Source: Terramyces sp. JEL0728
Taxonomy: Eukaryota > Chytridiomycota > Chytridiomycetes > Rhizophydiales > Terramycetaceae
DNA length: 37,711 nt
Direction: 5' to 3'
Assembly: GCA_027603945.1 (NCBI GenBank)
Contig: JADIIU010000119.1
Location: 1-37,711 of the forward strand
A program made the translations under genes and the position numbers. Below are positions 594-37,241 of the stretch, piece after piece (position 1 is the first letter of the stretch; every line of letters starts with the position of its first letter). Below the pieces are notes generated by a model. The model ran no database searches. It saw only the letters and a program-made list of their open reading frames with translations, and had not been told where the DNA came from.

Positions 594-2840
594 ATGAAAT
601 TTCTTGCCAAAATGACAGTTCTAGCCCCGCCTGAAGCAATGCAAGTTGAACATTTTCATACCTACCATGGTAGACAGTATTCTGACAACTTTAACTGGAT
701 CAAGAGCAAAGACCCAGAATCTAACAAGGATATCATGGAATACATTAATGTAACTTTTACTAACTTGGGCGGAAAACAAGTACTTTGATGAATACTTTAC
801 AGACAAAAAGTCGCTCATCGAATCACTGGTTAAGGAAAAGAAAGAGTTGGAAACTGGTGGTGAATCAATTTGGAATCTTCCTTTTTATAATAAGCCGTAT
901 TATTACTATTGGAGAAAGGAAGAGGGTAAAAAGCGTCAATTGTATTGTCGCAGAAAGGATTCAATGGAAGGAGAGGAGCAGGTTTTGCTCGATATGAATG
1001 AATTCACAGAAGCTTTTGTTGGATCAAGTACAACCAAAGTCAGTCCTGATCATAGCGTAAGATTCGACTGATTTAGATGCTGGCATATTCGTTAGATTTC
1101 AAAGGCGATGAAAACTATGCAATTTATTTTAAAAATCTAAATACCATGCAGGTGCTACCGGATGAAACTATTCCTGTTTCTTCTGGACCAATCGTGTGGT
1201 CGAAAGATAGTTGTTCAGTCTTTTATGTCCAGAGAGACGAGAAGCAACGGCCATGTTCAGTCTATCGACACACATTGGGAAAAGAAAGTGTTCAAGTTTA
1301 TTTCAGCGATGATGAGGGATTCAGAACGTATTTGCAGCAGTCAATTTCAAAAGAATATTTGTTTATCGTGACCTACTCCAAAAATACTAGGGAATGGCTG
1401 TATATCCCCCTAGCTGACCCACAAGCAGGTTAAAGGTTGCTAACACAGAACCAGAGCTCGTCGTGGAGCGGTCTATAGGCCACGAATACTTTGTTGAGCA
1501 TATTGGAAACCAGTTCCTCATTACTACCAATGGAGGAGGTGTCTATAGAAACAATAGGGTGTGCATCTGTCCAATTGAAGCAACAGCACTGGAAAATTGG
1601 AAAGAATTGGTTGCTTATGATCCAAATATCCGATTGATTGACGTGATTGCGTTCAAAAGTCATGTGGTATTGATAGAAAGAACAAATGGCCAGAATAGAT
1701 ACAGAGTATTTGAATATGATGCTGAAAATGGACATTTATCTGCTCCTGAAATTATTGATTTTCCAGAGCAAGTTTATTTTTCACGAATCTATAGTGTAAA
1801 CTTGATTAATCGTAGTTTGATCAGTTGAATTACAATTCGCTAGAGTTTGATATTATATACGAATCGCCAATATCACCGCCAAAGGTACTTTGCTACAATC
1901 TGTCTTTCAAGACTCTTGCTATCGTCAAAGAAACCAGCTATAAATCATTTGACTCGTCGTTGTACACTTGCGAAATGATTCAAGTTCCGATTGCACCAGA
2001 GAACCAAGTAAACTTTGAAGACTGTATTCTATCAACTACGGTACCGTTAGTAGTAGTTTACAGAAAGGATTTGATGAATAAGGATGGTTCGAATCCTGCC
2101 TACCTTAAAGGATACGGTGCTTATGGAACAATGACAAGTACGTGGAATTAAAATTAGAATTCTTTTGGAATAGTTCAAATATTTCGCTGTTGGACAGAGG
2201 ATACGTTGTTGCAGCAGCATTTGTTAGAGGAGGAGATAAGAGCAAAGAATGGTAACTTTTATTCATTCAGGCATGATACTGGAAGGCTGCATCACAAAAA
2301 GAATTCGTTTGTGGATTTTGTTAGTTGCGCAAAGGCAATGTTCGAGAGGAAACTCACCAGTCCTCAGAAACTAGCGATTGAAGGCAAATCTGCTGGCGGT
2401 TTATTGATTGGGGCAGTACTAAACATGGAGCCTGGAATCTGCAAGTCTGCTCTTTTAGATGTTCCGTTCCTTGACGTGATCAACACAATGATGGATCCAA
2501 GCATTCCTTTAACGATACAGGAGCGTGGAGAGTGGGGAGATCCTAACAAGCCAGAAACATTTGACTATGTCATGTCGTATTCTCCTTATGAAAACATTCC
2601 AAAAGGAGAAAAGGTAGTTTGGCACTAAACCAGTTTCCAAATGTGATGATTAACACCAGTGTGAAAGATACTAGAGTACCATATTGGGAACCAATGAAAT
2701 ACTTGGCTAGATTGAGAGAGCGACAGAAAAGCGATTCTGTTTTTGTAGGGAATTGTAACACCTTATCTGGGCACTTTGGTGGTTTGAATGACAATGAAGA
2801 AGCACGGGCAATTGCCTTTATCATATCTACTATTCAATAA
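594..2840 (+). CDS. oligopeptidase B-like prolyl oligopeptidase (S9A), 7 mini-introns
   Basis: Serine peptidase of family S9A; oligopeptidase B cleaves short peptides after basic residues in the cytosol. Splicing out seven introns (750-768, 1057-1076, 1429-1448, 1796-1815, 2138-2157, 2252-2270, 2614-2633) gives a 702-aa protein, the usual length of the family. The N-terminal part is the beta-propeller region (for example KVSPDHS then MLAYSLDFKGDENY). The C-terminal hydrolase carries the Ser motif GKSAGGLLIG, an Asp in VKDTRVPYWEP and a His in LSGHFGG, so the triad is complete. ATG at 594 is chosen because upstream in-frame codons lack another ATG; 612 is also possible. The first intron seems to end in GG rather than AG (separate entry). 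The next gene starts 89 bp downstream on the same strand. Assignment to oligopeptidase B rather than another S9A type rests on the YWEP and GxSAGG contexts. Confidence 0.92.
750..768 (+). other. 19-nt intron with apparent GT-GG ends
   Basis: Removing GTAACTTTTACTAACTTGG restores the family-typical reading YIN-AENKYFDEYF across the junction. The intron has a good branch motif (CTAAC) but its last two bases are GG. The only nearby AG is 12 bases on; using it would make a 31-nt intron and delete the conserved AENK residues. So this is a non-canonical acceptor, a base error or a polymorphism (AG to GG). Confidence 0.6.
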
Positions 2841-2929
2841 ATCTGGTGCAACCCTCGATCTTTGTCTTCATAAAGTTGGCTGAAATAGAGTTTTGTGGCT
2901 TGTTTCAAAATATTTTTTGTTTCCCCAAA

Positions 2930-3798
2930 ATGAGCTGCCAATGCTATCCAGAGTTTAAAGATGGACACAAATATATCCAGTGGATTGGGACTGTATTTAA
3001 CGACTGCGTATACACTCCGATCGAGCAATTCTCATTTTATATCGCATTCATTGGTTTGTTTTGTTCATTAATCGCCATGTTTCCCCAATTCTACACTAAT
3101 TACAAATTAAAAAACGTTCATGGATTATCCTTTGGCCTAGTATTACTATGGACTGCGGGAGATATAGCGTCACTGGCGGGAACAATTCTAACCAAACAAT
3201 TGACAACTCAGAAATGGACTGCTATTTTCTTTACAATTATTGATGTAGCTATGATGATTCAGTATTTCTATTACAGCAGATTTTATCCTAAAGTCTATCC
3301 ACATGAATATGTTCAAGTACCAGAAGTTGATCAAGATTTTCAACAGCCACAAAGTACCAGCAGCGTACCAACTTCTCTCGTAGCCGCTACACTCATTCCA
3401 GGTGCTGCTGCAATCGTGATTCCTCTTAGATCTACGGTTGCTGAACTGTGCAATGCTACATCGGAAGTTTCAAATGGAGGAAAGATTTTTGGGTACGTGT
3501 TAGCCTGGTCTGCTGGTTTATTTTACTTTTGTAGCAGGTAGCTATTGTTAATTCCAGAATACCACAGTTGATTCAAAACCACAAGGAAAAATCTGTTCAT
3601 GGTCTGTCGTTATACTTGTTCTTGCTATCTATAGCTGGTAATGTTGGGTACGGCGTTTCAATCTTTTTGAGAATGCCTCTTATTGATATCGAATTCTTCT
3701 TGTCCACATTTCCATACCTAGTTGGTTCGATTGGCGTTAGCGTTCTAGATTTTGGCACTCTGTATCAAGCGCGCTTGTATGGCGGATTTGATTCTTAA
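2930..3798 (+). CDS. YPQ/PQLC2-type PQ-loop transporter of the vacuole
   Basis: Predicted seven-helix PQ-loop (SLC66/YPQ) protein; relatives export cationic amino acids from the vacuole or lysosome. One 20-nt intron (3538-3557, GTAGCTATTGTTAATTCCAG) is removed to give 282 aa. The first PQ motif is in MFPQFYTNYK (about residue 57), the second in RIPQLIQNHK (about residue 204), where the intron cuts the Arg codon just before the Ile-Pro-Gln. The loops VHGLSFGL and VHGLSLYL following each motif are typical of the fungal family. Hydrophobic segments flank both motifs, with a polar loop rich in Gln/Ser between them at residues about 120-145. ATG at 2930 is the first that precedes the whole family-like region. 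Substrate is inferred from the family only. Confidence 0.88.
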
Positions 3799-3926: not shown

Positions 3927-5207
<1,281 letters not shown>

Positions 5208-5759: not shown

Positions 5760-7009
5760 CTATTGTTGGGCACACTGGACTTGAGGGCCGTGACCTTCTT
5801 CATCATCTTGGACTGGCTGGTTTCTGGCTTGTCTGCTTGTATCCACTTCTGATAACACGACTTCCTCGACATGCTTGTCCATAGGTGCGTCGACAGGCTG
5901 TCTAGGCGGTAATACTGTTTCTAAAATAGCCAATTTAGAGTTGTCTACCCAGTTTGGCTTTGGGAATTCAATTTCAAACTTTACGTAAAGCACACCCTTG
6001 TCGAATGGATTTTTATATCTAGCATTAGCTAATACTTACGTTGGCATTCCTTCGTTGTTGATAGCTTTGATGCTCCCTGGAGTAATAACCTCACCTGGCA
6101 AGATGTTGACCATTAGTACCCTGTCGTCAAGATGTGGAATAGCGAATGGACCGCCAGCAAGAGCAGTCAATAGATCAATTTTGACATCAGTATATAAATC
6201 GTTTCCTTTCCTTTGGAATCTAGCATGTTCTTTTTGTTCGATTACAATTACAATATCTCCAGGGATAATGCCTGGTGCCTGGTCGCCTTCGCCTGTGAAT
6301 GTAATCTTTTGACCGTCCAACATACCCTTTTCGATAAAGACTTCTAAAATCTTGCGTTCAGTTGCCACTTTGCGACCATTACATGCTTTACATCTGTCTT
6401 TTTCTTGGATAACTTCGCCTTCTCCTTGACAATCTGGACAAGTTTGCTGCATTTGCTGGATCATAGGTCCCATTTGGCGCATAATGATCTTGATACCACG
6501 TCCGTTACATCCAGAACAAGACTTAACAGAGCCTTCTTTTCCACCACGGCCTTCACAAGAGCCACACAACACTTGTTTTTGTAAAGCCAATTTGGAGGTC
6601 TTGCCCTTGTACAAGTCTTCAAGACTGACTTTTAAGCCGTGAGCCATATCTTTTCCTTTTCTTGGACCTCTTTGCTGCTGTCTTCCGCCGCCTCCAAAGA
6701 AACCACCTCCTCCGCCAAAGAGTTGAGAGAATAAATCCTCTGGGTTGACACCATGGCCGCCATCTCCAGACAAACCTTCCTCGCCATATCTGTCATAAAC
6801 CTGTCTTTTTTGATCGTCTGAAAGAACTTCGTAGGCATGAGATATCTCCTTGAATTTATCGCCGGCATCAGGGTTTTTGTCAGGGTGATACTTTAACGCT
6901 AATTTTCTGTATGCTTTCTTTAATTCACCTTCAGAGCAGTCTGGAGATACTCCTAAAGTGTCATATAACTTAGTTTCCTTGGGCACTGGAATTAAAAAAA
7001 ATACTTACT
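5760..7009 (-). CDS. YDJ1: DnaJ/Hsp40 co-chaperone, Ydj1 type, farnesylation motif
   Basis: Type I Hsp40 that stimulates Hsp70 ATPase and delivers substrates at the cytosol and organelle surface. Two introns (6986-7008, 23 nt; 6019-6039, 21 nt) give 401 aa, against 409 in yeast Ydj1. J domain at residues about 5-70 with YHPDKNP; Gly-rich linker; zinc-binding region with four CxxCxGxG-like repeats ([32 protein letters not shown]); substrate-binding C-terminal domains; and a C-terminal CAQQ, a CaaX box like Ydj1's CASQ. The first intron splits the start codon, A before it and TG after it, giving MPKETK as in MVKETK of Ydj1. A perfect heat-shock element lies about 215 bp upstream. Confidence 0.95.
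6986..7008 (-). other. 23-nt intron that splits the DnaJ start codon
   Basis: The intron begins GTAAGTATT, has a T-rich middle, a TTAAT branch motif and ends CCAG. The base before it (7009) is A and the bases after it (6985-6984) are TG, so ATG exists only after splicing. The upstream exon has no ATG in this frame, and the spliced N-terminus MPKETKLYD matches Ydj1 proteins. The unspliced message would lack the normal start. Confidence 0.85.
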
Positions 7010-7393: not shown

Positions 7394-7853
7394 TTATTCT
7401 TCCAATGGATCAATCGTTTGCAGTAACTTGATTCCACGGACGTGAGTGTCTTTACCGTTCTGATGGTTCAGTAATACACAGACTTGAATCATAAAAGTCT
7501 TTTGTCCTGCAATTGGAATATCAACCCATCCTGTTGGTTCTGGATTAACTAGTATTACCTTCAAACTCCTGCTTGACGACCTCCAGCAACGTGTCCGGAT
7601 TAGTTCCAATTCTCACCGATATCACTTTGGGCGAATAAGATTCGTCCTGTTTAAAGTCAAAATATATCGAGACTGTATTGATCCTTGTTCGTTTCTTAAA
7701 ATTAAAGTTGATGTAGTGCGGTTGAGGTCCATCTGACTGCCAAAATGTTTCTAAATTCGAATTTAACAGCTGCTTGATTGAAAATCCAGGTTTATAGGAA
7801 GACATAGATATCTGGGCTGTCGAAGTCAAATCTCGCTGATTCAGATTCAGCAT
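7394..7853 (-). CDS. APC10: anaphase-promoting complex subunit 10 (APC10/Doc1)
   Basis: DOC-domain subunit of the APC/C ubiquitin ligase; with Cdc20/Cdh1 it forms the degron (D-box) receptor and promotes processive ubiquitination in the nucleus. One 19-nt intron (7540-7558) is removed to give 146 aa. Family hallmarks are clear: SSYKPGFSIKQLL, NLETFWQSDGPQPHYINFNF, TVSIYFDFKQDESYSPK, SVRIGTN, EEPTGWVDIPI (across the junction), and FMIQVCVLLNHQNGKDTHVRG. The usual DOC length is about 160-250 aa; this one has a very short N-terminus from ATG at 7853 and lacks a long C-terminal IR tail (ends LLQTIDPLEE). The frame stays open upstream of 7853 but without ATG, so an upstream exon is not excluded. 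Divergent from the next gene across 262 bp. Confidence 0.93.
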
Positions 7854-8115: not shown

Positions 8116-9424
8116 ATGAGAAGAGAGTACGATGGAGTCCAAGATTTACAGGATACGATAACAAAATTAAAAGTAAGGTCGGAATCGAGTGCCAAACGAC
8201 AAGCCCTGCGCAATATTAAGCCAAGTTCGTTTTATGCTCCTGCTGCAGGTTATAGTGCACTAATTGTAGAAGAGAACGATGAAGATTTAAGCGATAGCAC
8301 CTTTGAGCCGAGCACACAAGAAACCACCGAATCATCAGAGGATATAGAAACAGCAGAAGAGGAAGAGCTGGAAACCACAGTTTTGGAGACTATTGAAGCT
8401 TGTACTCCTGTATTTTTCAACACCACAGCATTATACGAAGGAGATAGTGAAGGAGGTACTTTTTTTAAATTAATATAGCTTCGGATTATCATGGTAGTGA
8501 CGATGGCGAAGGTCCTGAAGAATTACCTCCAGCTCATTACAGCAACAAAGTCGAAAAGTGGGCAAGTAGAGCCGCCAATATGCTCTCTAGTCCAAATCCG
8601 CAAGATCAGAGGTTTTATGGGTTACCTAGTAATCTCACTTACTGGACCACATTTCTATACAAATACAAGCGAGAACAGAGCAGATGGGTGAAAAAGGGTC
8701 CAGTAATCCTGTACTTTAATCAACAAACCCAAGTTCCAAGGTTGATGGGAAATTACCTGTACGGAACTAAAGCGAATTGTGTGGACATGCAGCTATTTGG
8801 AAATCTCAATCATTACCTACGATGTGCGAATAACTTGATGTGCTTTTCCACGTTCAGACGCAACGCTGTAAAGAAGGCTGAGATTATTTCTGAAAGAGTA
8901 GCTTTGGAAATGATCTTTCCTAATGCTCCGATTGACCATAGCTTGCCTGTTTTCAAATGCACACCAAGGATCTATTCCGCACAAGAAGAGGAAGCAACTG
9001 TGCTTGCTTTCAAGTTTCTAAATGTCCAAGGTATTTTTTGCTAATGTAGAATGTGAGCGATTTAGAGCTTCAATTGATGAAGCTTGCAATTATACCAGTG
9101 AAATCGAATACCGACAACGACTAGCAACTTTTGACACCCCGCAGCCAGTTCATCGTTTCAACCATGTGGTAATGCAAGATTGTACCTACAAAATCAATCC
9201 AAACTTTTGCGCAACTGTAATCTTTACTAATGTAGATGGCTAGAAATGGTCTGGTATATCACCCAACGAATTCTCATACAGGTATATTGGATACAGTACA
9301 ATGTACGTGGTGTGGAGCTCAGTTTGGTCCGTTCAATGATGTAGTAGATGTTGTAGCGCACCACCAACATGCGCATTCAGTTGGCGAGCCTAAAGTTAGC
9401 TGTCCCTTCTTGAACCAGTCTTAA
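8116..9424 (+). CDS. unrecognised 415-aa protein with C-terminal C2H2-like finger
   Basis: I do not recognise the family. Three introns (8456-8478, 9031-9049, 9217-9235; 23, 19 and 19 nt) restore one continuous frame. The first ~110 residues are polar, with an acidic Glu/Ser/Thr-rich run at about 60-100. A middle region with aromatic residues (YGLPSNLTYWTTFLYKYKRE) follows. Near the C-terminus, CTWCGAQF...HHQHAH has the spacing of a C2H2-type zinc finger, so a nuclear role is possible. Evidence that it is a gene: four exons join in frame at good mini-intron sites and the frame stays open over 1.2 kb. It converges on the esterase gene, whose stop lies 48 bp away. Confidence 0.7.
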
Positions 9425-9472: not shown

Positions 9473-10822
9473 TCATTCTTTGTTTGTGGCCGAAATGACT
9501 CTAGTTCCATCCAGCAACTGCTCTTGCGTCCAGATTCCTTTTTGTACCAAAATGTCCATCCCATCTTGTATAATCTCGCCATAATCAGATATTTCTTCAG
9601 CGGGAAAGCGTTCTCTATTTCTAATCAAGTAGGCTCCGCTTTCAAGCTCTGCATTTGGCTCACTGCCAGTGTACTTTTTTATGAAATCGCCTAATCTTGA
9701 AAGTGCTTCTCTACCAAATTCTTCAAACCCTGAAAATAGTTGGAAAACATGGACTCCGTGCTCATACAATTCTAGTTTGATGTTTTCATTTGGAAAGAGC
9801 TTCTTGAAGAAGATTCCGTCATCTCTGACTCTTTCCGCGTCTCCAACCTGAATCAGCATTGGTGGGAATGCTACGTGTGATGGTTCGGCAAATATAGGTG
9901 ATGCGTAGGGATCGGTCAAGTATTTATCATGGGAAACGTATAAATTAGATCTAGAATTGGAAATGTACTTTTTGTCTGGAGTACCTTTTGGCAAATAGCA
10001 GTACGGCTTGTTTAAATGCCAGGCTGGCAACGATTGGGTTAAATCCATCTAGATTAGCAATAATTACATATGGAGACATGCAGCATAATGCTCCTGGCAC
10101 CGGCAAATCTCCCGTATCTCTGCAGTACAGCATTGCTGCAGTTGCCAATGCACCGCCAGCACTATCGCCAACAAATGATATTTGGTGGGGCTCATATTTC
10201 TGCAAAAGGTATTGGTAAGCCGATAAAACATCAATCAATGCTGCTGGGAATACATGCTGCGGTGCTAACCTGTAATCAACTGCCAGTAATTTGGCTTCTG
10301 CATTCTTTGCCACTCTCCAAGTAATGCCTCTATGAGTTCTTCTTGATGCTAATACGTATGCACCTGATTAAATTGGAATATACCTCCATGAACATACAGG
10401 ATCACTCTGTCACTGCTTGGAGTGTCTGGATATTCTATCCACTCTGAATTAATAACCCCGTCTTTGTCGTTATACACAATTCCATTCAACTCTATGGAAG
10501 GCACCCTTGGAATTTTGATTTTTGTAACATTGGTTTTGATTGAGTTTGGGAGGGTTGCTTTTCGGCCACCTGCAATCAGTTTTGCAACATCAATTTGAGC
10601 TTTAAACGTATTCAAAAGCAGTCTTAACCACCTGATGATTGCTGCTGATTTCACCGATGTAGTGCTGAGCGGAAATGGCAAGTCATTCAAGTACCTGTCA
10701 TCCAATTCCTTTCTGACTGTGGATTTATCGTCTGCGTTCTCTTGAAATTCAAAAATAGTCTTTGGAAGAAAGTCTGAAGTCAATATTGATGTTTTCAGCC
10801 TGATATCAGTATTTTCCTGCAT
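9473..10822 (-). CDS. HSL-type (family IV) alpha/beta hydrolase, esterase or lipase
   Basis: Carboxyl-ester hydrolase related to hormone-sensitive lipase and arylacetamide deacetylase. Removal of introns 10364-10383 (20 nt) and 10049-10067 (19 nt) gives 436 aa. The oxyanion motif HGGAY is formed exactly across the first intron, followed by ASRRTHRGITWRVAKNAEAK and VDYRLAPQHVFPAAL; nucleophile elbow GDSAGGALA; acid residue in IQVGDAERVRDD; His in YEHGVHVFQLF. The N-terminal ~150 residues form a less conserved cap region. Start at 10822 (MQENTD) is the only ATG in the frame; about 30 codons upstream are open (VGVFPKVLLWFAK looks like real helix), so a short upstream exon may be missing. Substrate unknown. 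Confidence 0.88.
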
Positions 10823-11091: not shown

Positions 11092-12344
11092 ATGTCGTTT
11101 TTTGCGTCAAAGCCATACATAGTTGCAGTGGTTACTCTGGGAATATTTACGGATGCCTTTGCTTATGCGGTCTGCATTCCAAGTAGCATGTCTCTAACCC
11201 AGTATTTCCTTTTGTTATTCAAAAGTTTGGCGATGACAAAGACGTTGGATTATTAATTAGTTGCTTTTCAATCGGATTGCTCATTGGGTCGATTTCCTTT
11301 GGCATACTGGGAGATATATTGAACAGGCGGAAAACAATGGCTGGTGGACTAATAATTCTTGCAGCAGCTACGCTATTAATTGCGTTTGTGGAGGAGTATT
11401 GGTCAATTGCTTTGGGGAGATTTATTCAAGGACTCTCGTCCGGATCAATATGGGTGGTTGGATTAGCTTTGATTGTTGATACACACAATAAAGAGGAGCT
11501 AGGGATGGCAATGTCCATACCATTTACCGGATATACTTTGGGGACACTAATTGGCCCACTAGCAGGCGGCTATCTATATAAATACGGATATACAGTTCCA
11601 TTTTATTCGACTCTAGGACTTATTGGGTTGGATCTGGTAGGAAGATTGCTGTTAAAGGACCCCACTAAAGAAGTCCAGCAGGAAAAGATTACGTTTAAAG
11701 AATTTGCTGTTTCACTTCCGAAAAACAAACCACTAATGATACTGTTGCTATGCAGTCTGTTTGTTGGGGCGATAATTGGAAGTTTGGAAGTGTCAATGTC
11801 ATTGTATCTTCGTGATAACTATGGATTTACATCGGACCAGATTGGACTTGGGTTCTTGGCAATTGTGATTCCAGAAACCATCTTTTCTCCAATTTCTGGT
11901 TGGGTGTACGATAAATACGGATTTGGGAAAACCGCGATTGCTGGACTATCTGGCTGTACAGCGCTCTTAATTGTGTTGGGGTTCAATTTCAACTACCTGG
12001 TATTTGTAATCATACTTGCTTTAATGACATGCTTTTATTCCCTTTCGTTGGCGCCATTGCTACCAGAAATATCTACATGTGTATCTCCAGCAGCATATTC
12101 AAAAACATATGGAGTATTTAATTGCGCATATGGAGGAGGTTTCCTGCTTGGTCCATTTGTAGGAAGTGTCATATATGAATATTACGGCTGGCTGTGGCAG
12201 TGTATACTACTTTCAGCGATTACATTTATAGAAATATTTTTAGTGTATTATTATTTGGTACTGGTAAGAAGCACCGGCTTAGTCGATCCAGAATCGGATG
12301 AACAAACAGGGAGCTCTCCATCGATTCCAACAGACAAAATTTGA
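11092..12344 (+). CDS. major facilitator superfamily transporter, DHA1/VMAT-like
   Basis: Polytopic membrane transporter, 410 aa after removing one 20-nt intron (11183-11202, GTAGCATGTCTCTAACCCAG) in helix 1; splicing restores AVCIPIFPFVIQKFGDD. Twelve helices are apparent. The loop 2-3 signature GILGDILNRRKTMAGG and the helix 4 region GRFIQGLSSGSIWVVGLALI followed by DT are typical of drug:H+ antiporter-1 and vesicular amine transporter groups; motif C is seen as GYTLGTLIGPLAGGYLYKYG. A second half with GWVYDKYGFGKTAIAG mirrors the first. Substrate cannot be told from sequence. The C-terminal tail is short, polar and Ser/Pro-containing. Start at 11092 directly follows an AT-rich stretch shared with the divergent RING gene. 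Confidence 0.9.
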
Positions 12345-12989: not shown

Positions 12990-13676
12990 ATGCAGGACCA
13001 TATACCAACTGATGTCAAGAATATATCCAGCGATAAACCGATAAGACAATGCACGGGTTGCGGTACCACTCAAACACCACTCTGGAGAAGATCAGAAACA
13101 GGTGCAATTGTCTGCAATGCTTGTGGCCTTTACCTCAAATCTAATCTGCGGAAACCAAAGAGAGATTCATCTTGTGAACTAGATGAACACAAGAATTTGC
13201 AATTCTACTGGAGCAATTCGGCTGACAGAAAGGACTATCCAACAAACCGATGCAATAACTGCTACACAACGGACACTCCACTTTGGCGACGAGATTTTGA
13301 AGGTACTTTTTATGTAACTGTAGGGAATAGTATCTGTAATGCCTGTGGATTGTACTACAAACTCCATGGGGCTCATCGACCAAAGGAAATGAAGAATCCA
13401 ATAATACGACGGAGGAAGCGAGCACAGATATCGCGGCGCTCGCCAGAGACTAGTATTTCCTCAATGGACAGTTTCGCATCATTAACACTCCCGCCAATCA
13501 GAAAAATGCCGGACATTTCAACTGATAGCGGGTACCTTCCCTCTCCTTGCCTATCTCCACAAAACAAAATAACAAAGACAGAATCACACGGTTTATTATG
13601 TTTGGCCGAAATAGCAACGCTTAGGAACAAAGAACTATCTCCGTCTATAATGTCTCTTTCAAATATCCTCAGCTAA
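12990..13676 (+). CDS. GATA-type transcription factor with two zinc fingers
   Basis: 221 aa after removing a 21-nt intron (13303-13323). Finger 1 (residues about 21-45) has CTGC-x17-CNAC with [13 protein letters not shown]; finger 2 (about 87-111) has CNNC-x17-CNAC with [13 protein letters not shown], the 17-residue loop appearing only after splicing. After finger 2, [16 protein letters not shown] and IIRRRKR match the DNA-contacting tail of fungal iron repressors (SreA, Fep1, Sfu1); finger 1 is followed by GLYLKSN. However, the Cys-rich linker that senses iron in those proteins is not present: the ~45 residues between fingers hold a single Cys. So the family is sure, the iron role is only inference. 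The C-terminal half is Ser/Pro-rich ([11 protein letters not shown]). Confidence 0.9.
13303..13323 (+). other. 21-nt intron inside GATA finger 2, translatable if retained
   Basis: The intron starts GTACTTTTTATG, has GTAAC as branch-like motif and ends TGTAG. It is the only intron here whose length is a multiple of three and which contains no in-frame stop. Retention would insert seven residues into the zinc-finger loop (24 instead of 17 residues) without ending translation. Confidence 0.8.
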
Positions 13677-15952: not shown

Positions 15953-16811
15953 ATGCAGAGAGGATTGAATTTAGTAAAAGTATTTAATAAACCAGATTCA
16001 AAAGAGTGCATTTCATGCAACCGCTTTTGCCAGACTCGCCTCAGAAGCACCAGCAAAAGCACCATTGATGAAAACCTTCCAAATTTACAGATGGGTAATA
16101 CAACTCTAACGGCAGAATCCAGATACACCAGAAGTAAAGCCAAAATTACAGACTTATCAAATCAATTTAAACGACTGCGGACCTATGACTCTTGATGCGA
16201 TTATTAAAATCAAAAATGAAATTGACCCAACTCTCACTTTCAGAAGATCTTGCCGTGAAGGAATTTGCGGTTCTTGCGCAATGAATATCGACGGAGGAAA
16301 TACACTCGCTTGTTTATCAAGAATTGACAGGGACGCTTCAAAAGTATTGAAAATTTACCCTCTTCCACACACCTATGTCGTAAAGGATCTTGTCCCTGAC
16401 TTGACCAACTTTTACAGACAATACAAGTCAATTGAGCCGTATTTGAAGCAAAAAACTCCTCCTCCAGAGCGTGAAAATCTGCAATCTATTGAAGAAAGAA
16501 AGAAGCTTGACGGTCTTTATGAATGTATCTTGTGTGCTTGCTGCTCAACCTCCTGCCCAAGTTACTGGTGGAACAGGTAATGAAAAATCTAATTTAGTGA
16601 TAAATACCTTGGCCCAGCTGTATTGATGCAAGCTTACCGTTGGATCATTGATTCGCGTGATCAATTCTCTGCTGAGCGTCGTTTGGCATTGCAAGATCCA
16701 TTCTCAGTATATCGTTGCCACACCATCATGAACTGTGCAAGAACTTGTCCTAAAGGGCTGAACCCTGGGCTGGCTATTGCTGAAATTAAGAAGCAGATGG
16801 CTTTTGATTAA
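15953..16811 (+). CDS. SDH2: succinate dehydrogenase iron-sulfur subunit (SDHB), copy 1
   Basis: Electron-carrying subunit of respiratory complex II in the mitochondrial inner membrane, between the flavoprotein and ubiquinone. Three introns (15974-15995, 16095-16115, 16577-16597; 22, 21, 21 nt) are removed to give 264 aa. The mitochondrial presequence [20 protein letters not shown] is assembled only after the first splice, and [17 protein letters not shown] only after the second. All clusters are ligated: [2Fe-2S] [22 protein letters not shown]; [4Fe-4S] [17 protein letters not shown]; [3Fe-4S] [17 protein letters not shown] with the shared Cys. A complete second gene lies at 24777-25635. An ATAAAA overlaps the stop codon. 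Confidence 0.96.
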
Positions 16812-16999: not shown

Positions 17000-17458
17000 A
17001 TGAGCACCGATCCAGAAGAGAGCCGACAGACATTTACAAGCGACGAAACAGGGCACGATGAACCATGTCTATCCGATTTATATGCACTACTGCAAACATC
17101 GATATCCACACTAGAAAAATCACCACACCAGTCAATTGATACCCTAACGCTACTGATGGAACAGGTTTGCGCTCAACAAGAAGTATTGCAATCTTCTTCG
17201 GCGTACCAAGAACGCCTGGAATTTTGGCGACAAGTGAATGAAACGTGGTTGTATGTAATTGACTCGGCAATGAAAACCAAAGTACTTGAACGTGGCGATT
17301 GGCGAGCAGTTTGCGAAACCGTCGTAGCCGTTGGAAACGTACTATCTTTATACGGCATGGTAGAGTAAGCATGTTACTGATCTAGTTATCCAATGGGGTT
17401 TGCGGAAGCAAGGATAGTTCAGGCTATATGTAGAGGATTGGCAGATATATCAAGTTAG
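17000..17458 (+). CDS. unrecognised 145-aa helical protein, copy 1
   Basis: No family recognised. One 21-nt intron (17365-17385) lies close to the 3' end; splicing replaces the end GMVE-stop by GMVDYPMGFAEARIVQAICRG and a few more residues, total 145 aa. The N-terminus is polar and acidic; the rest looks helical (LSDLYALLQTSISTLEK, ERLEFWRQVNETWLYVIDSA, WRAVCETVVAVGNVLSLYG). The two copies encode identical proteins, which argues for a functional product. It is convergent with MNN1-A, whose stop is only 20 bp away. The unspliced mRNA would encode 122 aa, lacking the last helix. Confidence 0.72.
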
Positions 17459-21390: not shown

Positions 21391-21410
21391 AAAGTAAATT
21401 GGAAATTTTT

Positions 21411-23441: not shown

Positions 23442-23477
23442 TAGAATGAAATCCGTCTGTTTTCTTTCCTTTTATAC

Positions 23478-24620: not shown

Positions 24621-24776
24621 TGCAACTTTGTACAAGTAAGCCACACCAACTCGACTCGACTAGTAGGTTCTTTCCATTGCTTTTTTCATTTTTTATTTGT
24701 TGATTTGATGCATATGTTGAAATGATCATGCGGTCGTGTGTTTTTTGTTTTTCCTCACTCACTTTTTGTCATCAAG

Positions 24777-25635
24777 ATGCAGAGAGGATTGAATTTAGTA
24801 AAAGTATTTAATAAACCAGATTCAAAAGAGTGCATTTCATGCAACCGCTTTTGCCAGACTCGCCTCAGAAGCACCAGCAAAAGCACCATTGATGAAAACC
24901 TTCCAAATTTACAGATGGGTAATACAACTCTAACGGCAGAATCCAGATACACCAGAAGTAAAGCCAAAATTACAGACTTATCAAATCAATTTAAACGACT
25001 GCGGACCTATGACTCTTGATGCGATTATTAAAATCAAAAATGAAATTGACCCAACTCTCACTTTCAGAAGATCTTGTCGTGAGGGAATTTGCGGTTCTTG
25101 CGCAATGAATATCGACGGAGGAAATACACTCGCTTGTTTATCAAGAATTGACAGGGACGCTTCAAAAGTATTGAAAATTTACCCTCTTCCACACACCTAT
25201 GTCGTAAAGGATCTTGTCCCTGATTTGACCAACTTTTACAGACAATACAAGTCAATTGAGCCGTTTTTGAAGCAAAAAACTCCTCCTCCAGAGCGTGAAA
25301 ATCTGCAATCTATTGAAGAAAGAAAGAAGCTTGACGGTCTTTATGAATGTATCTTGTGTGCTTGCTGCTCAACCTCCTGCCCAAGTTACTGGTGGAACAG
25401 GTAATGAAAAATCTGATTTAGTGATAAATACCTTGGCCCGGCTGTATTGATGCAAGCTTACCGTTGGATCATTGATTCGCGAGATCAATTCTCTGCTGAG
25501 CGTCGTTTGGCATTGCAAGATCCATTCTCAGTATATCGTTGCCACACCATCATGAACTGTGCAAGAACTTGTCCTAAAGGGCTGAACCCTGGGCTGGCTA
25601 TTGCTGAAATTAAGAAGCAGATGGCTTTTGATTAA
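24777..25635 (+). CDS. SDH2: succinate dehydrogenase iron-sulfur subunit (SDHB), copy 2
   Basis: Duplicate of 15953-16811 with introns 24798-24819, 24919-24939 and 25401-25421. One residue differs (IEPFLK here, IEPYLK in copy 1). The third intron has branch motif CTGAT here and CTAAT in copy 1, a change that may affect splicing. All iron-sulfur ligands are intact. Two complete genes for one complex II subunit is unusual unless other subunits are also duplicated. Confidence 0.96.
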
Positions 25636-25811
25636 ATAAAATACTCATTCAATTGTTGATCTCATAGTTGCATGGCTGTATCTTTTTTTCATATCCTGGG
25701 AGATTTTGAATCAGAGGAGAGGCATGAAATACCAGTAGCGATTGTATTCATGAAATTTCATTAAGCAGAAGCAAACAGAAAAAAGTTTAAAAACCAATCA
25801 CAAAAATTAGT

Positions 25812-26270
25812 ATGAGCACCGATCCAGAAGAGAGCCGACAGACATTTACAAGCGACGAAACAGGGCACGACGAACCATGTCTATCCGATTTATATGCACT
25901 ACTGCAAACATCGATATCCACACTAGAAAAATCACCACACCAGTCAATTGATACCCTAACGCTACTGATGGAACAGGTTTGCGCTCAACAAGAAGTATTG
26001 CAATCTTCTTCGGCGTACCAAGAACGCCTGGAATTTTGGCGACAAGTGAATGAAACGTGGTTGTATGTAATTGACTCGGCAATGAAAACCAAAGTACTTG
26101 AACGTGGCGATTGGCGAGCAGTTTGCGAAACCGTCGTAGCCGTTGGAAACGTACTATCTTTATACGGCATGGTAGAGTAAGCATGTTACTGATCTAGTTA
26201 TCCAATGGGGTTTGCGGAAGCAAGGATAGTTCAGGCTATATGTAGAGGATTGGCAGATATATCAAGTTAG
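25812..26270 (+). CDS. unrecognised 145-aa helical protein, copy 2
   Basis: Duplicate of 17000-17458 with the same intron (26177-26197). The encoded protein is identical; one silent change is seen early in the frame (GAC for GAT). Convergent with MNN1-A copy 2, 20 bp between stops. Confidence 0.72.
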
Positions 26271-26290
26271 CAATAATAAATTAATATTCC

Positions 26291-27705
26291 CTAGTTTATT
26301 GAATCGTCGAAATTCAAGTTTTCTGAATTAATAAAATCGATTGAATTTTGGATGTATGCTTGCTGAATAGGAGAGAATTGCCGGGCTTCCTTTGACGATG
26401 ATACGCAAACGTAGCTGGGTGATTTGCCAGTAAAGAGGTAGCTGGATTTGCTGCTGCCGATGTTGTAGTGCGTAAATGTACCCAAGCCTTCTCCTTTACG
26501 GAATTTTGTATTTACATACCCGCCATTGGCCCATCCAGGTAGCCCATTTTCAGCCAGATGTATCATTTGTTCGCTACAAACTCTAGAATTCAGCTCGAGT
26601 TTGTCCGCGATCCCCATTGAGCCTGGTAGACTCTGTTCAAATTCAAAATCAGACTCAACCGCCGTGAATCCAATCCAAAAAGTTTCCTTGTCTATGATTA
26701 AAGTGTGCTACCTCCGTGGAATAACTTGTACATCACCTGTTTAATTAGCCCGCTATTTAATACACATGTAGCTAATAGCCCCATAAAAGATGCAGATTTA
26801 TCCATAACAATTAGTCCAGATTCTTGAAAGTGCTGCGCTTCATGCGATAAAATAGCAGTGTTTTTTACTTTTTCTGGTATAAATCCACCAAATAAGCTTT
26901 GAGCTGCTAGTACCGAGGTTATTGAAGCCGAGAATACCGGCCTGTCTTTGAAAAATAGTGCTCTATGCTGACGGTACAAGTCGCCTTCAAAGAACGTTTC
27001 TGGTGGTTGCAAAAAGATGGTGTCCGCGTCAATCATTATAACTTGTTCAAAGCTAGAAATTAGGGTAGCAAATGGTTTAGCGTCCCATCCAGTCAGTTCC
27101 AAAACAGAGTTGTCAAATACTTGCAACAAGTCAATGACTTTAAGATTGGAAACCGTCATCAGCCATTTCCTATTTGATTCACTTAAATCGCCGTCTCCGA
27201 TATAAAACGCTTCTATTGGCAATGTTGAATTATAAACTTTTCTAATGATTTGTGCGGTTGCGTATGCCATTGTGGTGTACCTATCATTCACGCAAAAAAC
27301 AATTCCTTTCCCAGAGTATGAGTTTCGCAAGTGAATTGAAGAGTTGAAGCTCTTTTTGATAAACCCAACTAATCCAGCTTCAATAATCTTGTATTCTGGC
27401 TGGAATGACTCTATATCTGTGTTGTTTATCGAGACTTGTTTCCAGATGTTCTCATGGTAAACCTTGAACGTACGCAGATAGTTGCCAATTGCCAAAAAAT
27501 CTCCAGGTTCATGAGTTGGCTGATATTTCAAGATTTCTCGATCTTGTTCTGAAATGTTGATTTCTACTTTTGGCTTTCCCAGTTTAGCTGAATTGAATTG
27601 ATCCCAGCGGGCTTTAATCACTGTAAATTGCCGCAAAACAAACGCGGTAATTAGTATGATTAGTATATATTTTGTCCATCTCTTTCGCTTCATCATGATT
27701 TTCAT
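26291..27705 (-). CDS. GT71 alpha-mannosyltransferase, MNN1 family, paralog A copy 2
   Basis: Duplicate of 17479-18893, 464 aa, intron 26692-26711. Three residue differences: KARWDQ for KAHWDQ, DLLQVF for DLSQVF, and VSSSKEA for VSSPKEA. DxD and other family blocks unchanged. The divergent promoter shared with GGT is 16 bp shorter than in copy 1. Confidence 0.92.
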
Positions 27706-27825
27706 TTTAATTCGCGTAAACCTATTGTTTATGCGTGTCAGCTACAAACGTGTTGCATCTTCTTTTGTAATTACTAGTGCCGATTTCATTGGGTTTGAAT
27801 TCGCCCAAGGGCCATTTATTTTTCC

Positions 27826-29599
27826 ATGATTTTCAACTCAAGACGTTCGACAGTTTACAGCACCAAGGCAATTGTCTCTGCTACCCAGCCATTGGCTGTA
27901 CAATGCGGAATAGAAGTGTTGCGACAAGGCGGGAACGCAGCTGATGCAGCAGTAGCAGTAATAGAAAGTTGAATTAGGTCGCTGCTGGATTAAATGTAAC
28001 AGAGCCGTCCTCAACTGGAATTGGAGGAGACTTGTTTTGTTTGTATTTCGATGCAAAAACACAGAAAGTGCATTCGTTAAATGCAACTGGAAAGTCTGCA
28101 CAAGCAGTTACTTTAGAAAAGGTAAAGGCAAAAGTTGGAGATGCTTCACATATCCCCTTTGATAATGTGCTTGCAGTTAATGTTCCTGGAGCAGCTGCTG
28201 GATGGGTAGATATGCATGAAATATTTGGAAGTAAAGCAGTAACATTGCAGCAGATTCTCCAACCTGCTATTGCTCTTGCCCGGGATGGATTTGCAATTAG
28301 TGAAATATCTGCCAAGAAATGGCAAGATAAAGTAGAATTGCTGAAACGCAACATGCCTGGAGCAAAAGAATTTCTTCCAAACGGAAATGCACCAAACGAA
28401 GGGGATTTAGTCTTTTTACCTGGACTTGCAAAGTAATTTCCTATTGACAAGAACTTTTGAATCAGTTGCAAAGCATGGAAAAGCTGGCTTTTACTCTGGT
28501 GAGATTGGAGCGGCGATTATCGAAGCTGTTCAATCCCGAGGTGGATTGTTGACGCTTGAAGACTTGGAAAGCCACGGAAACATCATCGGAGAGTCAATAT
28601 ATGCTCCATTTAGACACTTGATGGTTCATGAGCATGGGCCAAACGGCCAAGGGTGAGTTTATTATTGACATTAGCATCGTTGCTTTGATGGTACTGCAAA
28701 TCTTGGAATCACTCGAGAACCAAGGCAGGATTCCAAAATTAGAGTCGATGCAGCACAATTCAGTAGATTACATTCATGTAATCGTGGAAGCGCTAAAGCT
28801 AGCATTCGCCGACGCGCAATGGTATGTTACTGATCCACAAAAATATAACGTCCCGACTAAAGGACTACTTTCGCCGGAATATTTGACTAGTCAAAGTCAT
28901 TTGATTGACATGAAGAATGTTCTAAAAGAATACAACCACGGCCAGCCTCCCTCTTCTGGAAATACTGTGTAGTACTTTTGACTTTAGATTTAGCTTTAGT
29001 GTAGTTGACAAAGATGGAAATGCTTGCTCTGTAGTAAATTCTACTTATTCTCCTTTCGGCTCAGGTATTATTGTTCCAGGAACTGGGATAAATCTTCATT
29101 CAAGAGGAGCCAATTTCTCGCTTGATCCTGCAAGTCCAAATGTCATTGAAGGCGGAAAGAGACCATACCACACAATCATGTAAGGTTTGCTAATTCAGCC
29201 CTGCTTTAGCGACAAACAAGGAAACAGGATATTTGGAAATGAACTTTGGGGTAATGGGTATCGTGTTTGGTAATATTAGGGGCCTTTATGCAGCCTCAGG
29301 GCCATGTACAAGTACTATTGAATCATTATATCTATGAAATGCAAGTACAGCAAGCGCTAGATTCTCCTCGTTTTTGTTTTGAGGTTTCATCTGGTGAACT
29401 GCTTTTGGAAGATGGTATCAGCGAATCTGTCAAGAAGGAGCTGGAAGCTAAAGGGCATAGGGTCAGAATTGTCACTGGCCATGATAGAGCAGTATTTGGA
29501 AGAGGTCAGATTATAAAAAATATTCAGACCGAAAATGGGTTTGTTTTAGCTGGAGGTTCAGATCCAAGAGGGGACGGCCATGCTGTTCCAATGTTATAA
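27826..29599 (+). CDS. gamma-glutamyltransferase, copy 2, six mini-introns
   Basis: Duplicate of 19030-20803, 549 aa. Introns 27958-27977, 28433-28451, 28653-28674, 28972-28993, 29180-29198 and 29258-29279. Three residue differences (VKAKVG, APNEGD, LDSPRF). Intron 3 has the ordinary GT donor here. Intron 5 reads GTAAGGTTTGCTAATTCAG against GTAAGTTTTACTAATTCAG in copy 1, and intron 6 has one G/T change. Catalytic Thr and substrate loops are unchanged. Confidence 0.94.
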
Positions 29600-29660
29600 A
29601 CTGTAATAAAGATTTGATGAATATTTCCCAACTGCATGGATATTATCATGCATGAATAGT

Positions 29661-30176: not shown

Positions 30177-30196
30177 AAAGTAAATTGGAAATTTTT

Positions 30197-31588: not shown

Positions 31589-32936
31589 TTATTGAACTAA
31601 ATCAACCCACACAAGCCCTGATAATTCAATGACATCAATGATATTCTGTGGCAATTCTGGGGGCTTATCATCAGTAACTAGACACGCCATGTTTTTCACG
31701 CTAGAATTGACAAATGACCATGTACCTGGCTCATTAACATAATGGGTCGCTTCAATAATTTTTGTGCTGTTAGGTGCATATTTATTGAATTGAATTCCAC
31801 CGTTCATCCCTGTGTTAGTATTAATTACACGCAGGGCCGATCGACGTTGTATGAAGGATCTGAATTCCACATACTTCATAGTGTGTTGTAACATTATTGG
31901 CAGTTACTTTCTTTAATTCCCCAATTGAGCCAGCTCCTATTGGATTAAAAGCATAATCTTCTTGCGCGATTTCAAACCCAATCCAAAATGTTTCTTTGTC
32001 GCCATGCATATTGCCATAGGTTGCTTTCTTTACTTCATTCGTGTTCAACATACATGTCGCTAGTAGACCAGGTAAATGTCTTGCCTTGTCTATCATTACT
32101 ACTCCGGATTCCTGCATATGGCGAGATTTATTTGTAATTAGCCTATTCTTTGATGCCTTTTCAGATAATCTCGTCTGCAGCAACATTTTGATCCATTTTA
32201 TTTTGTAATATTCGATATGAAATGTTGTACGGTCGTTGAAAAACAATGCTCCGTGGTCAGAAAATAGCGGATCTGCAAACAACTTTGACGGCGATTGCAG
32301 AAACACTGTATCTGCGTCTATTAGCATTACCTTTCGAAATGAAGAAGCCAGCATTGCAAATGGTTTCATATCCCATGTGTTCAATTCCAGTTCTTTTGGA
32401 TATATTTTGCTAATATCGATTACCTTCAAATTAGGTATCTTTTTGAATTTCGCTTGGTTTTCCTTTGATAAATCATCTGCCCCGTTGAAAAATATTTCAA
32501 TTCTGATTATACATCGATGAATACTGCGAATCATCAGAATGGTGGATAACGCCATATCGGTGTATTGATTGCCAACTGCAATAACAATTCCTCTGCCCGA
32601 AAATGATTGTCGCATACTGACAGAGTCTCCAAAGGAAGGTTTCAAGTATGGAAATAGCTGTTTATCCAACTCTTGAGCAGCTTTGCTATACTTCCAAAAG
32701 AGACCTGCTTTTGAATAGTATCGATTATGCAGTGCGCTGTAGTGCCGTAATGCTTTTCCAAGTTCTCCTATTTTATTTGCTTTTTTGAAACTGACACCTT
32801 TGATTCTGAAATTAATTGCGTCAAGGTCATCTTTTGGTATTTCACTCAGCAATCCGCTCCATGCTGTACACGCAAATATGAAAAATAGTAACAACAGTGT
32901 GAGTACCAGGTATCGCACGATTTTGCGAAGGCGCAT
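31589..32936 (-). CDS. GT71 alpha-mannosyltransferase, MNN1 family, paralog C
   Basis: 442 aa after removal of a 19-nt intron (31810-31828, GTAATTAATACTAACACAG) that interrupts GPAW-MNGG, a place different from the intron of paralog A. N-terminus MRLRKIVRYLVLTLLLLFFI is a signal anchor. Blocks: SFSGRGIVIAVGNQYTDMAL, IEIFFNGADDLSKENQ, WDMKPFAMLASSFRKVMLID then ADTVFLQSP (DxD), MQESGVVMIDKARHLPGLLA, MHGDKETFWIGFEIAQEDY, THYVNEPGTWSF. Compared with B and D the donor-proximal block is IFFNG rather than FYIGE, and the DADT core is unchanged. Not part of the duplicated block. Its start is 48 bp from the stop of paralog D. Confidence 0.92.
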
Positions 32937-35491: not shown

Positions 35492-35552
35492 TTGGATGTT
35501 AAATGCTGACGAAAAAAAGAGTCTGTAACTGGAATCATAGAAAACAATTTTA

Positions 35553-37241
35553 TTAGAATCCTAACAGTACTTGGGGATAAACTTCGCGAACCTTGTTGAA
35601 CAATTCTGGCTTTGTATTGAATAAAGCTTGTGGATCTTCGGCTAAACAAACAAAAGTAGTGGTGACGCCAGAATCAATCACTCCTGACAACACAGAGAAT
35701 TCGACTATGCCAATAAAGAATCCGATCAAGCCCATAATTAGGAAATTTGGCCATACATCGTCGACGGTAGGACTGAGTTTGACATATGCTAGCGCGATTG
35801 CCCCTGTGATTACACCGATAATCAAGCACCCGATGCCCAAAACATTGCCAATCAAATTGTCGTTTATAACTGCATCAATACCTCGTGATTTAGCCAGTTC
35901 CCAGGTGTCTTTGGCTGCAGTGCAATAGTCTTTTCCATAGATTGCAACTTGTGCGAAAGCGTACTTGTTAAAGTATTCCAGCAAATCTTCAAACATGCTC
36001 AAGATACAAGCAATACAACACAAGATGATCTGGCACGCAACATTGTCATTCCCATCATTATTGCGAGCGCTGTTGACCAGGAATTTTAAAGTTTGGATGA
36101 TAGCAATAAGCAATGAGCCATAGCAGTTTGGCCCCAATCCGCTGGTCAATGCTCTCTTGGCAGCTTTAGCTGTTGGGTTTCGCACTGGAACATTGACGTT
36201 ACCACTGGCATCTGTTGTCCCCATAAAGTAATAAGTTGCAAATACACCAGATACAGTAATATGAACGGCATTTCCAACAACTTGTGATGTCCAGTAAAAG
36301 AAAAATACACAGTAAAGGCTCAATCCATAGACAGCACCGCTCGAAAGCACCTTATTATTCCCCAATACGTCTATACCAATTAAAGTGAATAACCACCATA
36401 CAATAAAGACCATTTGAACAATCAATCCAACAACTCCAACGCCTAATGTTGCTGGGAACTGCTTGGTGATTGAGGTAACAGTTTTTAAGATAACTTTGGC
36501 AAATGGAATGCGTGATCTCCAACTCCAGTAGGCCCAAGCAGTCAATGCGGCAAGAACTAGCATTATAATGCCAGTCACAAATTGTCCGAGAATGAAAAAC
36601 AGCGCTGCAACAGCAAAGTTCATGACAATCGCCAATATCATGGTGATTTTAATTAAAGTACCAGCAAACCTAGGTTAATGCAACTGTACTTTTGCATCAT
36701 AAAAAAGTAAATCACGCTGATAATGAATCCAACACCGACAGATGTAACCAAAACCCCAATGAAATTATTTGTGGAAACTGAAAATTGAGGGTTGCTTGAC
36801 GTGGAAGTGGTTGCTCTTTTTGCGACACCACTTGAATTAGAATTAGTATTTGCAGTGTGAGCTGGATCTCGGAGATAGTTGATACCTACGTTAAATAAAA
36901 TTACTATACGCTGAAAGGCCAGCAAAGGCAATTAAACATATAATCCATAGTCCAACAGCCCAAATATCCTTGTATTTGGAGCTCTTGAATCTATCTTCCT
37001 TTTTCGGCGGTTGAACAGGTGCATTATTGTTCAATGGCTCATTGCTTTGATATACGTAAGGTTGTGGAGGTGGTTGGTTTGTGTTTGGCGGTGGAGTTCC
37101 GTAAGGCGATTGGCCATATTGCTGTTGACCGTACTGTTGTTGCTGGTAAGGCTGTTGACCATATTGCTGTTGACCATACGGCTGCTGTTGATATGGTTGT
37201 TGACCATAAGGTTGCTGTTGGTGCGGTTGCTGGTATGACAT
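35553..37241 (-). CDS. PNS1: Pns1/choline-transporter-like (CTL, SLC44) membrane protein
   Basis: 549 aa after removal of introns 36886-36904 (19 nt) and 36670-36689 (20 nt). The N-terminal ~60 residues are low complexity, with repeats of QQPYGQQ and PYQQQ then a Pro/Asn stretch, typical of fungal Pns1. Then about ten hydrophobic segments and the CTL domain with ILAIVMNFAVAALFFILGQ, ASGNVNVPVRNPTAKAAKRA, CYGSLLIAIIQTLKFLVNSA, NKYAFAQVAIYGKDYCTAAK (the most conserved CTL block), DSGVTTTFVCLAEDPQAL and FNKVREVYPQVLLGF. Plasma-membrane location is expected; the transport activity of fungal Pns1 is not well defined. A second paralog begins its 3' end 143 bp upstream. Confidence 0.93.

Follow-up and report, generated by a model that had tools for sequence, protein, structure and literature searches.

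The window analysed here is an entire contig (C119, 37,711 bases) of the chytrid fungus Terramyces sp. JEL0728 (genome 15.0 Mb, 231 contigs), which the taxonomy places in the Chytridiomycota, Rhizophydiales, Terramycetaceae. Fifteen genes and four duplicate copies were modelled in it from reading frame, homology and a purpose-built gene finder. They are interrupted by 37 distinct introns (48 including those of the duplicated copies), all of which are 19-23 nucleotides (nt) long (Table 1): 11 have 19 nt, 12 have 20, eight have 21, four have 22 and two have 23 nt. Introns of this size are far below the usual fungal length. An earlier note on this DNA had counted 36 distinct introns (47 with duplicates) in the same length range and had taken the host for a fungus with tiny introns; our recount and the identity of the organism agree with this, and spliceosomal signals are present.

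After removal of the introns, all 19 gene copies were multiples of three and free of internal stops. GT-AG ends were found in 35 of the 37 distinct introns, the exceptions being OpB intron 1 (750-768, GT-GG) and GGT intron 3 (19857-19878, GC-AG). The positions of the introns in the proteins were derived from the spliced gene models and, for OpB, computed directly. According to these positions, 26 of the 37 junctions fall within protein ranges that align with a solved structure or Pfam domain: seven in OpB, six in GGT, four in the MAPK gene, two each in SDH2 and the esterase gene and one each in the DnaJ, APC10, MFS, GATA and Mannosyl_trans3 genes (the esterase gene and these last five by Pfam). 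The other 11 introns were placed by reading frame and motifs, with the deposited protein as additional support for SDH2 intron 1. Removal of the GATA intron, which has 21 nt and no stop, gives the second zinc finger a spacing of 17 residues, equal to that of the first finger. For the last MAPK intron (4018-4038), lengths of 18 and 21 nt are both possible. The three examples singled out in the earlier note are the introns at 1796-1815, 3538-3557 and 9031-9049. The gene at 8116-9424 has no good Pfam family (a BIR match was under its cut-off) and the gene at 17000-17458 matched no Pfam family; Pfam was not applied to the gene at 31589-32936, which has one intron and whose mannosyltransferase-like name is our own reading.

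Table 1. Introns of the window. Positions are window coordinates; support is the evidence by which each intron was placed, to which the gene model is added for OpB.
Gene and intron	Position	Strand	Length (nt)	Support	Remarks
OpB intron 1	750..768	+	19	Structure alignment	GT-GG; deposited model 31 nt, loses AENK
OpB intron 2	1057..1076	+	20	Structure alignment	Same in deposited protein
OpB intron 3	1429..1448	+	20	Structure alignment	Same in deposited protein
OpB intron 4	1796..1815	+	20	Structure alignment	Same in deposited protein; example in earlier note
OpB intron 5	2138..2157	+	20	Structure alignment	Same in deposited protein; 7-residue insert here in Boothiomyces macroporosus
OpB intron 6	2252..2270	+	19	Structure alignment	Same in deposited protein
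OpB intron 7	2614..2633	+	20	Structure alignment	Same in deposited protein
PQ-loop (cystinosin-like) gene intron	3538..3557	+	20	Gene model	PQ-loop by Pfam; example in earlier note
MAPK intron 1	5100..5118	-	19	Gene model, structure alignment	
MAPK intron 2	4894..4913	-	20	Gene model, structure alignment	
MAPK intron 3	4472..4492	-	21	Gene model, structure alignment	
MAPK intron 4	4292..4312	-	21	Gene model, structure alignment	
MAPK intron 5	4018..4038	-	21 (or 18)	Gene model	Beyond aligned range
DnaJ gene intron 1	6986..7008	-	23	Gene model	Splits ATG
DnaJ gene intron 2	6019..6039	-	21	Gene model, Pfam	
APC10 intron	7540..7558	-	19	Gene model, Pfam	
Unnamed gene intron 1	8456..8478	+	23	Frame and motifs only	
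Unnamed gene intron 2	9031..9049	+	19	Frame and motifs only	Example in earlier note
Unnamed gene intron 3	9217..9235	+	19	Frame and motifs only	
Esterase intron 1	10364..10383	-	20	Gene model, Pfam	
Esterase intron 2	10049..10067	-	19	Gene model, Pfam	
MFS transporter intron	11183..11202	+	20	Gene model, Pfam	
GATA factor intron	13303..13323	+	21	Gene model, Pfam	No stop
SDH2 intron 1	15974..15995	+	22	Gene model, deposited protein	
SDH2 intron 2	16095..16115	+	21	Gene model, deposited protein, structure alignment	
SDH2 intron 3	16577..16597	+	21	Gene model, deposited protein, structure alignment	
Unnamed gene intron	17365..17385	+	21	Frame and motifs only	
Mannosyl_trans3 gene intron	17880..17899	-	20	Gene model, Pfam	
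GGT intron 1	19162..19181	+	20	Gene model, structure alignment	
GGT intron 2	19637..19655	+	19	Gene model, structure alignment	
GGT intron 3	19857..19878	+	22	Gene model, structure alignment	GC-AG
GGT intron 4	20176..20197	+	22	Gene model, structure alignment	
GGT intron 5	20384..20402	+	19	Gene model, structure alignment	
GGT intron 6	20462..20483	+	22	Gene model, structure alignment	
SDH2 copy 2 intron 1	24798..24819	+	22	Gene model	
SDH2 copy 2 intron 2	24919..24939	+	21	Gene model	
SDH2 copy 2 intron 3	25401..25421	+	21	Gene model	
Unnamed gene copy 2 intron	26177..26197	+	21	Gene model	
Mannosyl_trans3 gene copy 2 intron	26692..26711	-	20	Gene model	
GGT copy 2 intron 1	27958..27977	+	20	Gene model	
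GGT copy 2 intron 2	28433..28451	+	19	Gene model	
GGT copy 2 intron 3	28653..28674	+	22	Gene model	GT-AG
GGT copy 2 intron 4	28972..28993	+	22	Gene model	
GGT copy 2 intron 5	29180..29198	+	19	Gene model	
GGT copy 2 intron 6	29258..29279	+	22	Gene model	
Second mannosyltransferase-like gene intron	31810..31828	-	19	Gene model	Name is our own reading
Choline-transporter-like gene intron 1	36886..36904	-	19	Gene model	Outside Pfam range
Choline-transporter-like gene intron 2	36670..36689	-	20	Gene model	Outside Pfam range

The introns of SDH2 and OpB are mostly contained in the deposited annotation, thus tiny introns are already visible there. The deposited SDH2 of Terramyces sp. JEL0728 is identical to our spliced SDH2 (264 of 264 residues), and the deposited OpB (HDV01_000891) differs from our otherwise identical model in a start six residues further on and in the absence of the residues AENK, showing that six of the seven introns were placed alike by the depositors. 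At intron 1 their version is 31 nt long and has an AG end, and the four residues are lost with it. At this site Boothiomyces macroporosus has AEN, two other aligned OpB homologs have KEN and AEN, and the best solved OpB structure (2xe4) aligns across our junction without a gap. Since the homologs keep these residues and the alignment is gapless, the 19-nt version ending in GG fits better than the 31-nt version, unless the base is a sequencing error.

Some deposited proteins of related chytrids show irregularities at or beside intron sites. The OpB of B. macroporosus has seven extra residues (STSKLTL) precisely where intron 5 has its phase-1 site; the codons of these residues permit a GT...AG intron of 21 nt that contains a branch-like motif and the excision of which would restore K-F. 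The same protein lacks eight residues next to intron 4, and the SDH2 of Globomyces (P0090) lacks 15 residues immediately before the site of SDH2 intron 3, a loss not seen in the other three aligned chytrid SDH2 proteins. These inserts and losses would be the kinds of error expected of a gene finder unable to use tiny introns, and they may be a hint that the trait is shared. The claim that standard gene finders misannotate such a genome thus applies to OpB intron 1 and probably to some proteins of the relatives, but not to SDH2, which is spliced fully as in our model, nor to the six other OpB introns. Similarly, the statement that not one longer intron was needed holds for our models of the window; the depositors have 31 nt at OpB intron 1, and introns of 45-62 nt were found elsewhere in the genome (see below).

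Some further features of the window were observed. It contains a tandem duplication of about 8.8 kb (13907-31513) with SDH2, GGT, mannosyltransferase-like genes and a putative peptidyl-tRNA hydrolase, the offset between the copies being 8,857 for the gene at 13907, 8,824 for SDH2 and 8,786 for the last mannosyltransferase-like gene. GGT intron 3 has a GC donor at 19857-19878 but a GT donor in the duplicate (28653-28674), which makes them a natural pair for the study of donor use. In the DnaJ gene model the ATG is split A|TG by the first intron, and a second, partial copy of the choline-transporter-like gene (37385-37711) is cut by the contig end.

For the genome beyond the window we used 20 stretches of 10 kb, picked by contig number and a fixed offset before inspection; together with the window, which makes up 16% of this sample, they comprise 237,711 bases and are the basis of all sample counts. 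Without any gene model, the pattern GT..YTAAY..AG occurred 75, 89 and 57 times at 19, 20 and 21 nt, and 18-44 times per length (around 30) at the other lengths between 10 and 80 nt. No peak at 19-21 nt was seen in controls with CT or TG replacing GT or with a different branch motif; the CT control was elevated at 9-13 nt, where the letters overlap. The narrower pattern GTA..YTAAY..YAG was found 46, 56, 24 and 11 times at 19-22 nt, and was flat between 30 and 390 nt (3.5-4.4 per length in each 20-nt bin). A branch-AG motif with GT 17-24 nt before its end was present 196 times, against 81 for the reversed motif.

Gene-finder runs gave the same picture when compared with decoys, that is, runs in which other end dinucleotides replaced GT/AG. 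A flat length prior from 10 to 300 nt with GT/AG as the only signal yielded 67 introns of 19-22 nt (decoys 10, 5 and 9), and a signal model trained on introns of 17-26 nt yielded 102 at 19-23 nt (1-2 at 18-23 nt in each of four decoys). After retraining without length preference, 134 introns of 18-23 nt were called (decoys 2, 5 and 1), and with a penalty of 12 there were 76 tiny introns (decoys 1, 3 and 0). A first coding model was weak (14 introns at 19-21 nt, decoys 1-2) and was replaced. With eleven other end pairs, between 2 and 12 introns of 18-23 nt were called per pair, against 143 for GT-AG; where the introns of three such pairs were inspected, many turned out to be real GT-AG introns with a shifted end, and only the GT-GG intron at 750-768 was convincing. 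The GC-AG intron of GGT had been recognised by hand via the duplicate copy and not by the end-pair run.

In the whole genome the strict pattern GTAAN{2,32}TTAATNNTAG matched 773 times, the reversed pattern 269 times. The first 100 of the 773 matches (contigs C1-C5) comprised 47 of 20 nt, 30 of 21 nt and 6 of 22 nt (83 in total), the remaining 17 having other lengths within 17-44 nt. None had 19 nt; because the pattern fixes the tail at 6 nt, this means that no branch A in these 100 matches lies at position 13, in agreement with the sample. Beyond the window too, in the sample and by the genome-wide pattern, most introns are below 25 nt, and a broad length distribution outside the contig, which the earlier note had named as contrary evidence, was not seen: the sample has an excess over the decoys at 18-23 nt and none at 24-300 nt.

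The geometry of the introns was determined for 133 distinct introns of the sample, 20 of them from the window. A branch motif was found in 131. The branch A is at nt 14 in 59 introns, at 15 in 46, at 16 in 13, at 17 in five, at 18 in one and at 10-12 in seven; thus 118 of the 133 have it at 14-16 and none at 13. The tail beyond the branch A is 5 nt in 58 and 6 nt in 53 introns, and 3-11 nt in the rest. The introns start with GTA(A) and have YTRAY as branch motif and mainly TAG or CAG as acceptor; the A+T content is 70%, and phases 0, 1 and 2 were counted 61, 37 and 37 times. In-frame stops were present in 24 of 24 introns of length 3n, 24 of 47 of length 3n+1 and 40 of 64 of length 3n+2. An apparent selection against stopless 3n introns was rejected as a bias of the gene finder, since it reads through stopless 3n introns such as the 21-nt GATA intron. 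The length pattern, the fixed signals and their spacing, and the dominance of tiny introns in the sample and the genome-wide pattern are shown directly by the sequence.

It could be argued that the introns are artefacts, composed of sequencing errors, frameshifts and pseudogene damage, with a length peak that arises from choosing GT and AG by eye. All data are sequence data, and one intron (750-768) lacks the AG. But the sharp peak at 19-22 nt appears without gene models and vanishes with decoy dinucleotides, nearly all introns contain the branch motif and conserved genes read through at full length, which leaves this explanation hardly credible.

We consider it very probable that the segments are spliceosomal introns of the U2 type, compressed to a fixed ruler. 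Its parts are GTA(A) at the 5' splice site, a spacer of 6-8 nt, YTRAY with the A usually at nt 14-16, and a tail of 5-6 nt ending in AG, which add up to 19-22 nt in most introns. The signals, the protein homology and the components of the machinery suggest that removal is by the U2 spliceosome. The U2 small nuclear RNA (snRNA) was found with 140.2 bits and carries the usual branch-pairing GUAGUA, and SF1 was found in two exons (66.2 and 42.9 bits; cut-off 29.3). The gene model of U2AF65 itself has four introns of 19-20 nt. The predicted CWC25 protein starts with MGGGDLNLKKSWHP, like the solved CWC25 (5yzg_X), and keeps the N-terminal GGG plug. CWC25 occurs twice, on contigs C30 and C33, in stretches (L033 and L034) that encode the same predicted protein; stretches L023 and L024 are near-identical as well, and such pairs are perhaps haplotypes or a recent duplication.

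In favour of removal without a spliceosome, by DNA elimination or ribosomal bypassing, is a statement that an adenovirus pre-mRNA no longer supports assembly once 5' splice site and branch are only 35 nt apart (cited passage of PMC6692369). Yet the introns share a GT-branch-AG consensus, the U2 snRNA has the usual GUAGUA, all three phases are used and the longer introns have the same signals; such a process is extremely improbable here.

Several observations weigh against a genome of compressed U2-type introns. Splicing itself is deduced here from the genome sequence. U2AF65 scored 251.7 bits, below the family cut-off of 310.3, with four stops within the match; perhaps the interrupting introns cause this shortfall. 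Its search also matched in two of 14 control genomes, in our own reading through RNA-binding domains common to other proteins. The U1 snRNA was not found in the genome, and the U6 snRNA was found neither by the family model nor by a DNA query or two patterns; these searches gave nothing in the control genomes either, so absence is unproven. Two Rfam matches to U6 (27.4 and 26.9 bits, gathering score 44) resemble, in our own reading, a coding region present in two copies. The gapped U6 pattern had no match and the two-mismatch pattern three, against three in the control; we had expected a tiny intron within the U6 gene, but neither the patterns nor the DNA query found such a gene. Training on introns of 17-26 nt favours the tiny class, although the gene-finder runs without signals are independent of it. 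The branch-AG motif itself is not enriched over its reversed form (304 versus 298). Some introns depart from the ruler, with the branch A at 10-12 (7 of 133) or 17-18 (6 of 133) or without a clear branch (2 of 133).

Moreover, longer introns do exist. RPS3 (stretch L005) has a 45-nt intron from GTAAGT to CTAATCTTAG whose junction is contiguous when aligned with a solved ribosomal protein S3, PWP1 (stretch L021) has one of about 56 nt, where the solved protein is two residues shorter, and ISY1 has one of 62 nt (hand count), across which the proteins of Boothiomyces sp. JEL0838 and Globomyces continue without a gap. They were met in the few genes that were closely inspected, and their number is no measure of their share. 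Thus longer introns are present, and the uniformity claimed in the earlier note is a dominance of tiny introns in the sample and the genome-wide pattern. These three introns would fit a substantial second class of ordinary introns of 40-100 nt, missing from the window by chance. At 24-300 nt the retrained gene finder called 52 introns against 125, 107 and 122 in the decoys, and with the penalty of 12 there were 22 longer ones against 54, 41 and 58. These decoy counts are inflated, because decoys must bridge real tiny introns some other way, and are only a loose bound on the longer class; they show only that no large class of longer introns is needed. The narrower pattern is flat from 30 to 390 nt, although a class of several per cent could be missed by such tests. 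We regard a substantial second class as improbable.

If the compressed introns are spliced as proposed, the floor with the branch A at nt 14 most likely represents the smallest lariat loop that the Terramyces spliceosome can close. The first G and the branch A are only 13 nt apart, which would leave hardly any room for the U1 and U2 small nuclear ribonucleoproteins to lie next to each other as they do in larger introns, and the hand-over from U1 to U2 would therefore be faster or differently arranged. Since a few introns of 45-62 nt are seemingly processed as well, the machinery would tolerate tiny introns and not require them.

As the earlier note proposed, the spliceosome may plausibly be adapted to intron definition. 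Of the components inspected, U2, SF1, U2AF65 and the CWC25 plug look ordinary, and the N-terminus of ISY1 is the one candidate change. In our gene model, Terramyces ISY1 starts with MAPKTLAQKQE in place of MARNEEK. The first GT in the in-frame region follows these residues and an apparent open reading frame on the opposite strand begins some tens of nt upstream, which makes an upstream exon unlikely. These 11 residues recur in Boothiomyces sp. JEL0838, and Globomyces has MANNQKEKQ; ISY1 starts with MARNEEK in Thoreauomyces, Capsaspora, Basidiobolus and a protein labelled jgi/Hompol1, presumably Homolaphlyctis, and the model of Batrachochytrium salamandrivorans begins at a later Met. Among the best 120 of 262 ISY1 homologs, 71 contain M[AS]RN within the first 60 residues; this count is no test alone, because many others appear to be models that start at a later Met or differ by one residue (MARS, MARD). 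At the 5' end of the gene (L036, minus strand, 1694-1758), three tiny-intron signatures follow one another in a stretch of 65 nt, 3-4 nt apart; there may be micro-exons or one intron of 65-70 nt, and the single long intron is in keeping with the protein of Boothiomyces sp. JEL0838.

Tiny introns are known from other systems: 15-16 nt in heterotrich ciliates, 16-17 nt in mikrocytids and 18-21 nt in the chlorarachniophyte nucleomorph (cited passages of PMC10245619). The nucleomorph range is nearly that of Terramyces, but the nucleomorph is a relic endosymbiont nucleus, whereas Terramyces has a 15-Mb chytrid genome with a few introns of 45-62 nt. Mikrocytos mackini is similar in its tiny, uniform introns of conserved sequence (PMC10245619, in part); it is an intracellular parasite with 224 introns genome-wide, compared to 134 called in 238 kb of Terramyces. 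Paramecium and Nyctotherus, both ciliates, have only ultra-short introns as well, somewhat longer at about 25 nt (PMC5014332, in part). Stentor and the heterotrichs share with Terramyces the rigid geometry, the 5-nt tail and the GUAGUA of U2, but in the available part of that report (PMC9505925) the Stentor branch A is at 10-11 without a strong branch consensus, in contrast to mostly 14-16 in Terramyces. According to that work, the N-terminus of Stentor ISY1, a contact of the intron backbone, shows a striking lack of conservation, and Stentor CWC25 has no plug. The ISY1 N-terminus would thus be changed in both organisms (in Terramyces according to the gene model), whereas the GGG plug of CWC25 is kept only in Terramyces. 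Tentatively, and with rather less than even confidence, we suggest that in a lineage of Terramyces and Boothiomyces, perhaps with Globomyces, introns reached the minimum of the 14-nt loop and the N-terminal motif of ISY1, which enters the active site, was adaptively lost, in convergence with Stentor, whereas the CWC25 plug stayed.

Tiny introns as such are already known. Among the matches listed in the open literature (subscription papers being mostly outside its scope), the published tiny-intron genomes are those of ciliates, a rhizarian parasite and relic algal nuclei, and none of these matches reports tiny introns in Terramyces, Boothiomyces or other chytrids, which is no proof of absence. 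The available intron passages of two chytrid genome papers gave no lengths of introns found. In the part available of a survey of 644 fungal genomes, two Chytridiomycota appear in the intron-density table (PMC8476143), and a pan-eukaryotic survey left out introns below 30 bp in all species (PMC10639083, in part), a blind spot that is exposed by the introns described here. Some deposited proteins of Terramyces and its relatives carry errors of the sort that missed tiny introns would produce. A chytrid with introns of 19-22 nt would bring the trait into the kingdom with the best splicing genetics. The minimal distance between 5' splice site and branch would become testable, with 13 nt in Terramyces compared to the approximately 50 nt that efficient human splicing is said to require (cited passage of PMC6692369). 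If true, the ISY1 reading would mean that one active-site element evolved convergently in two kingdoms, and Terramyces offers a new place to study how small introns can get.

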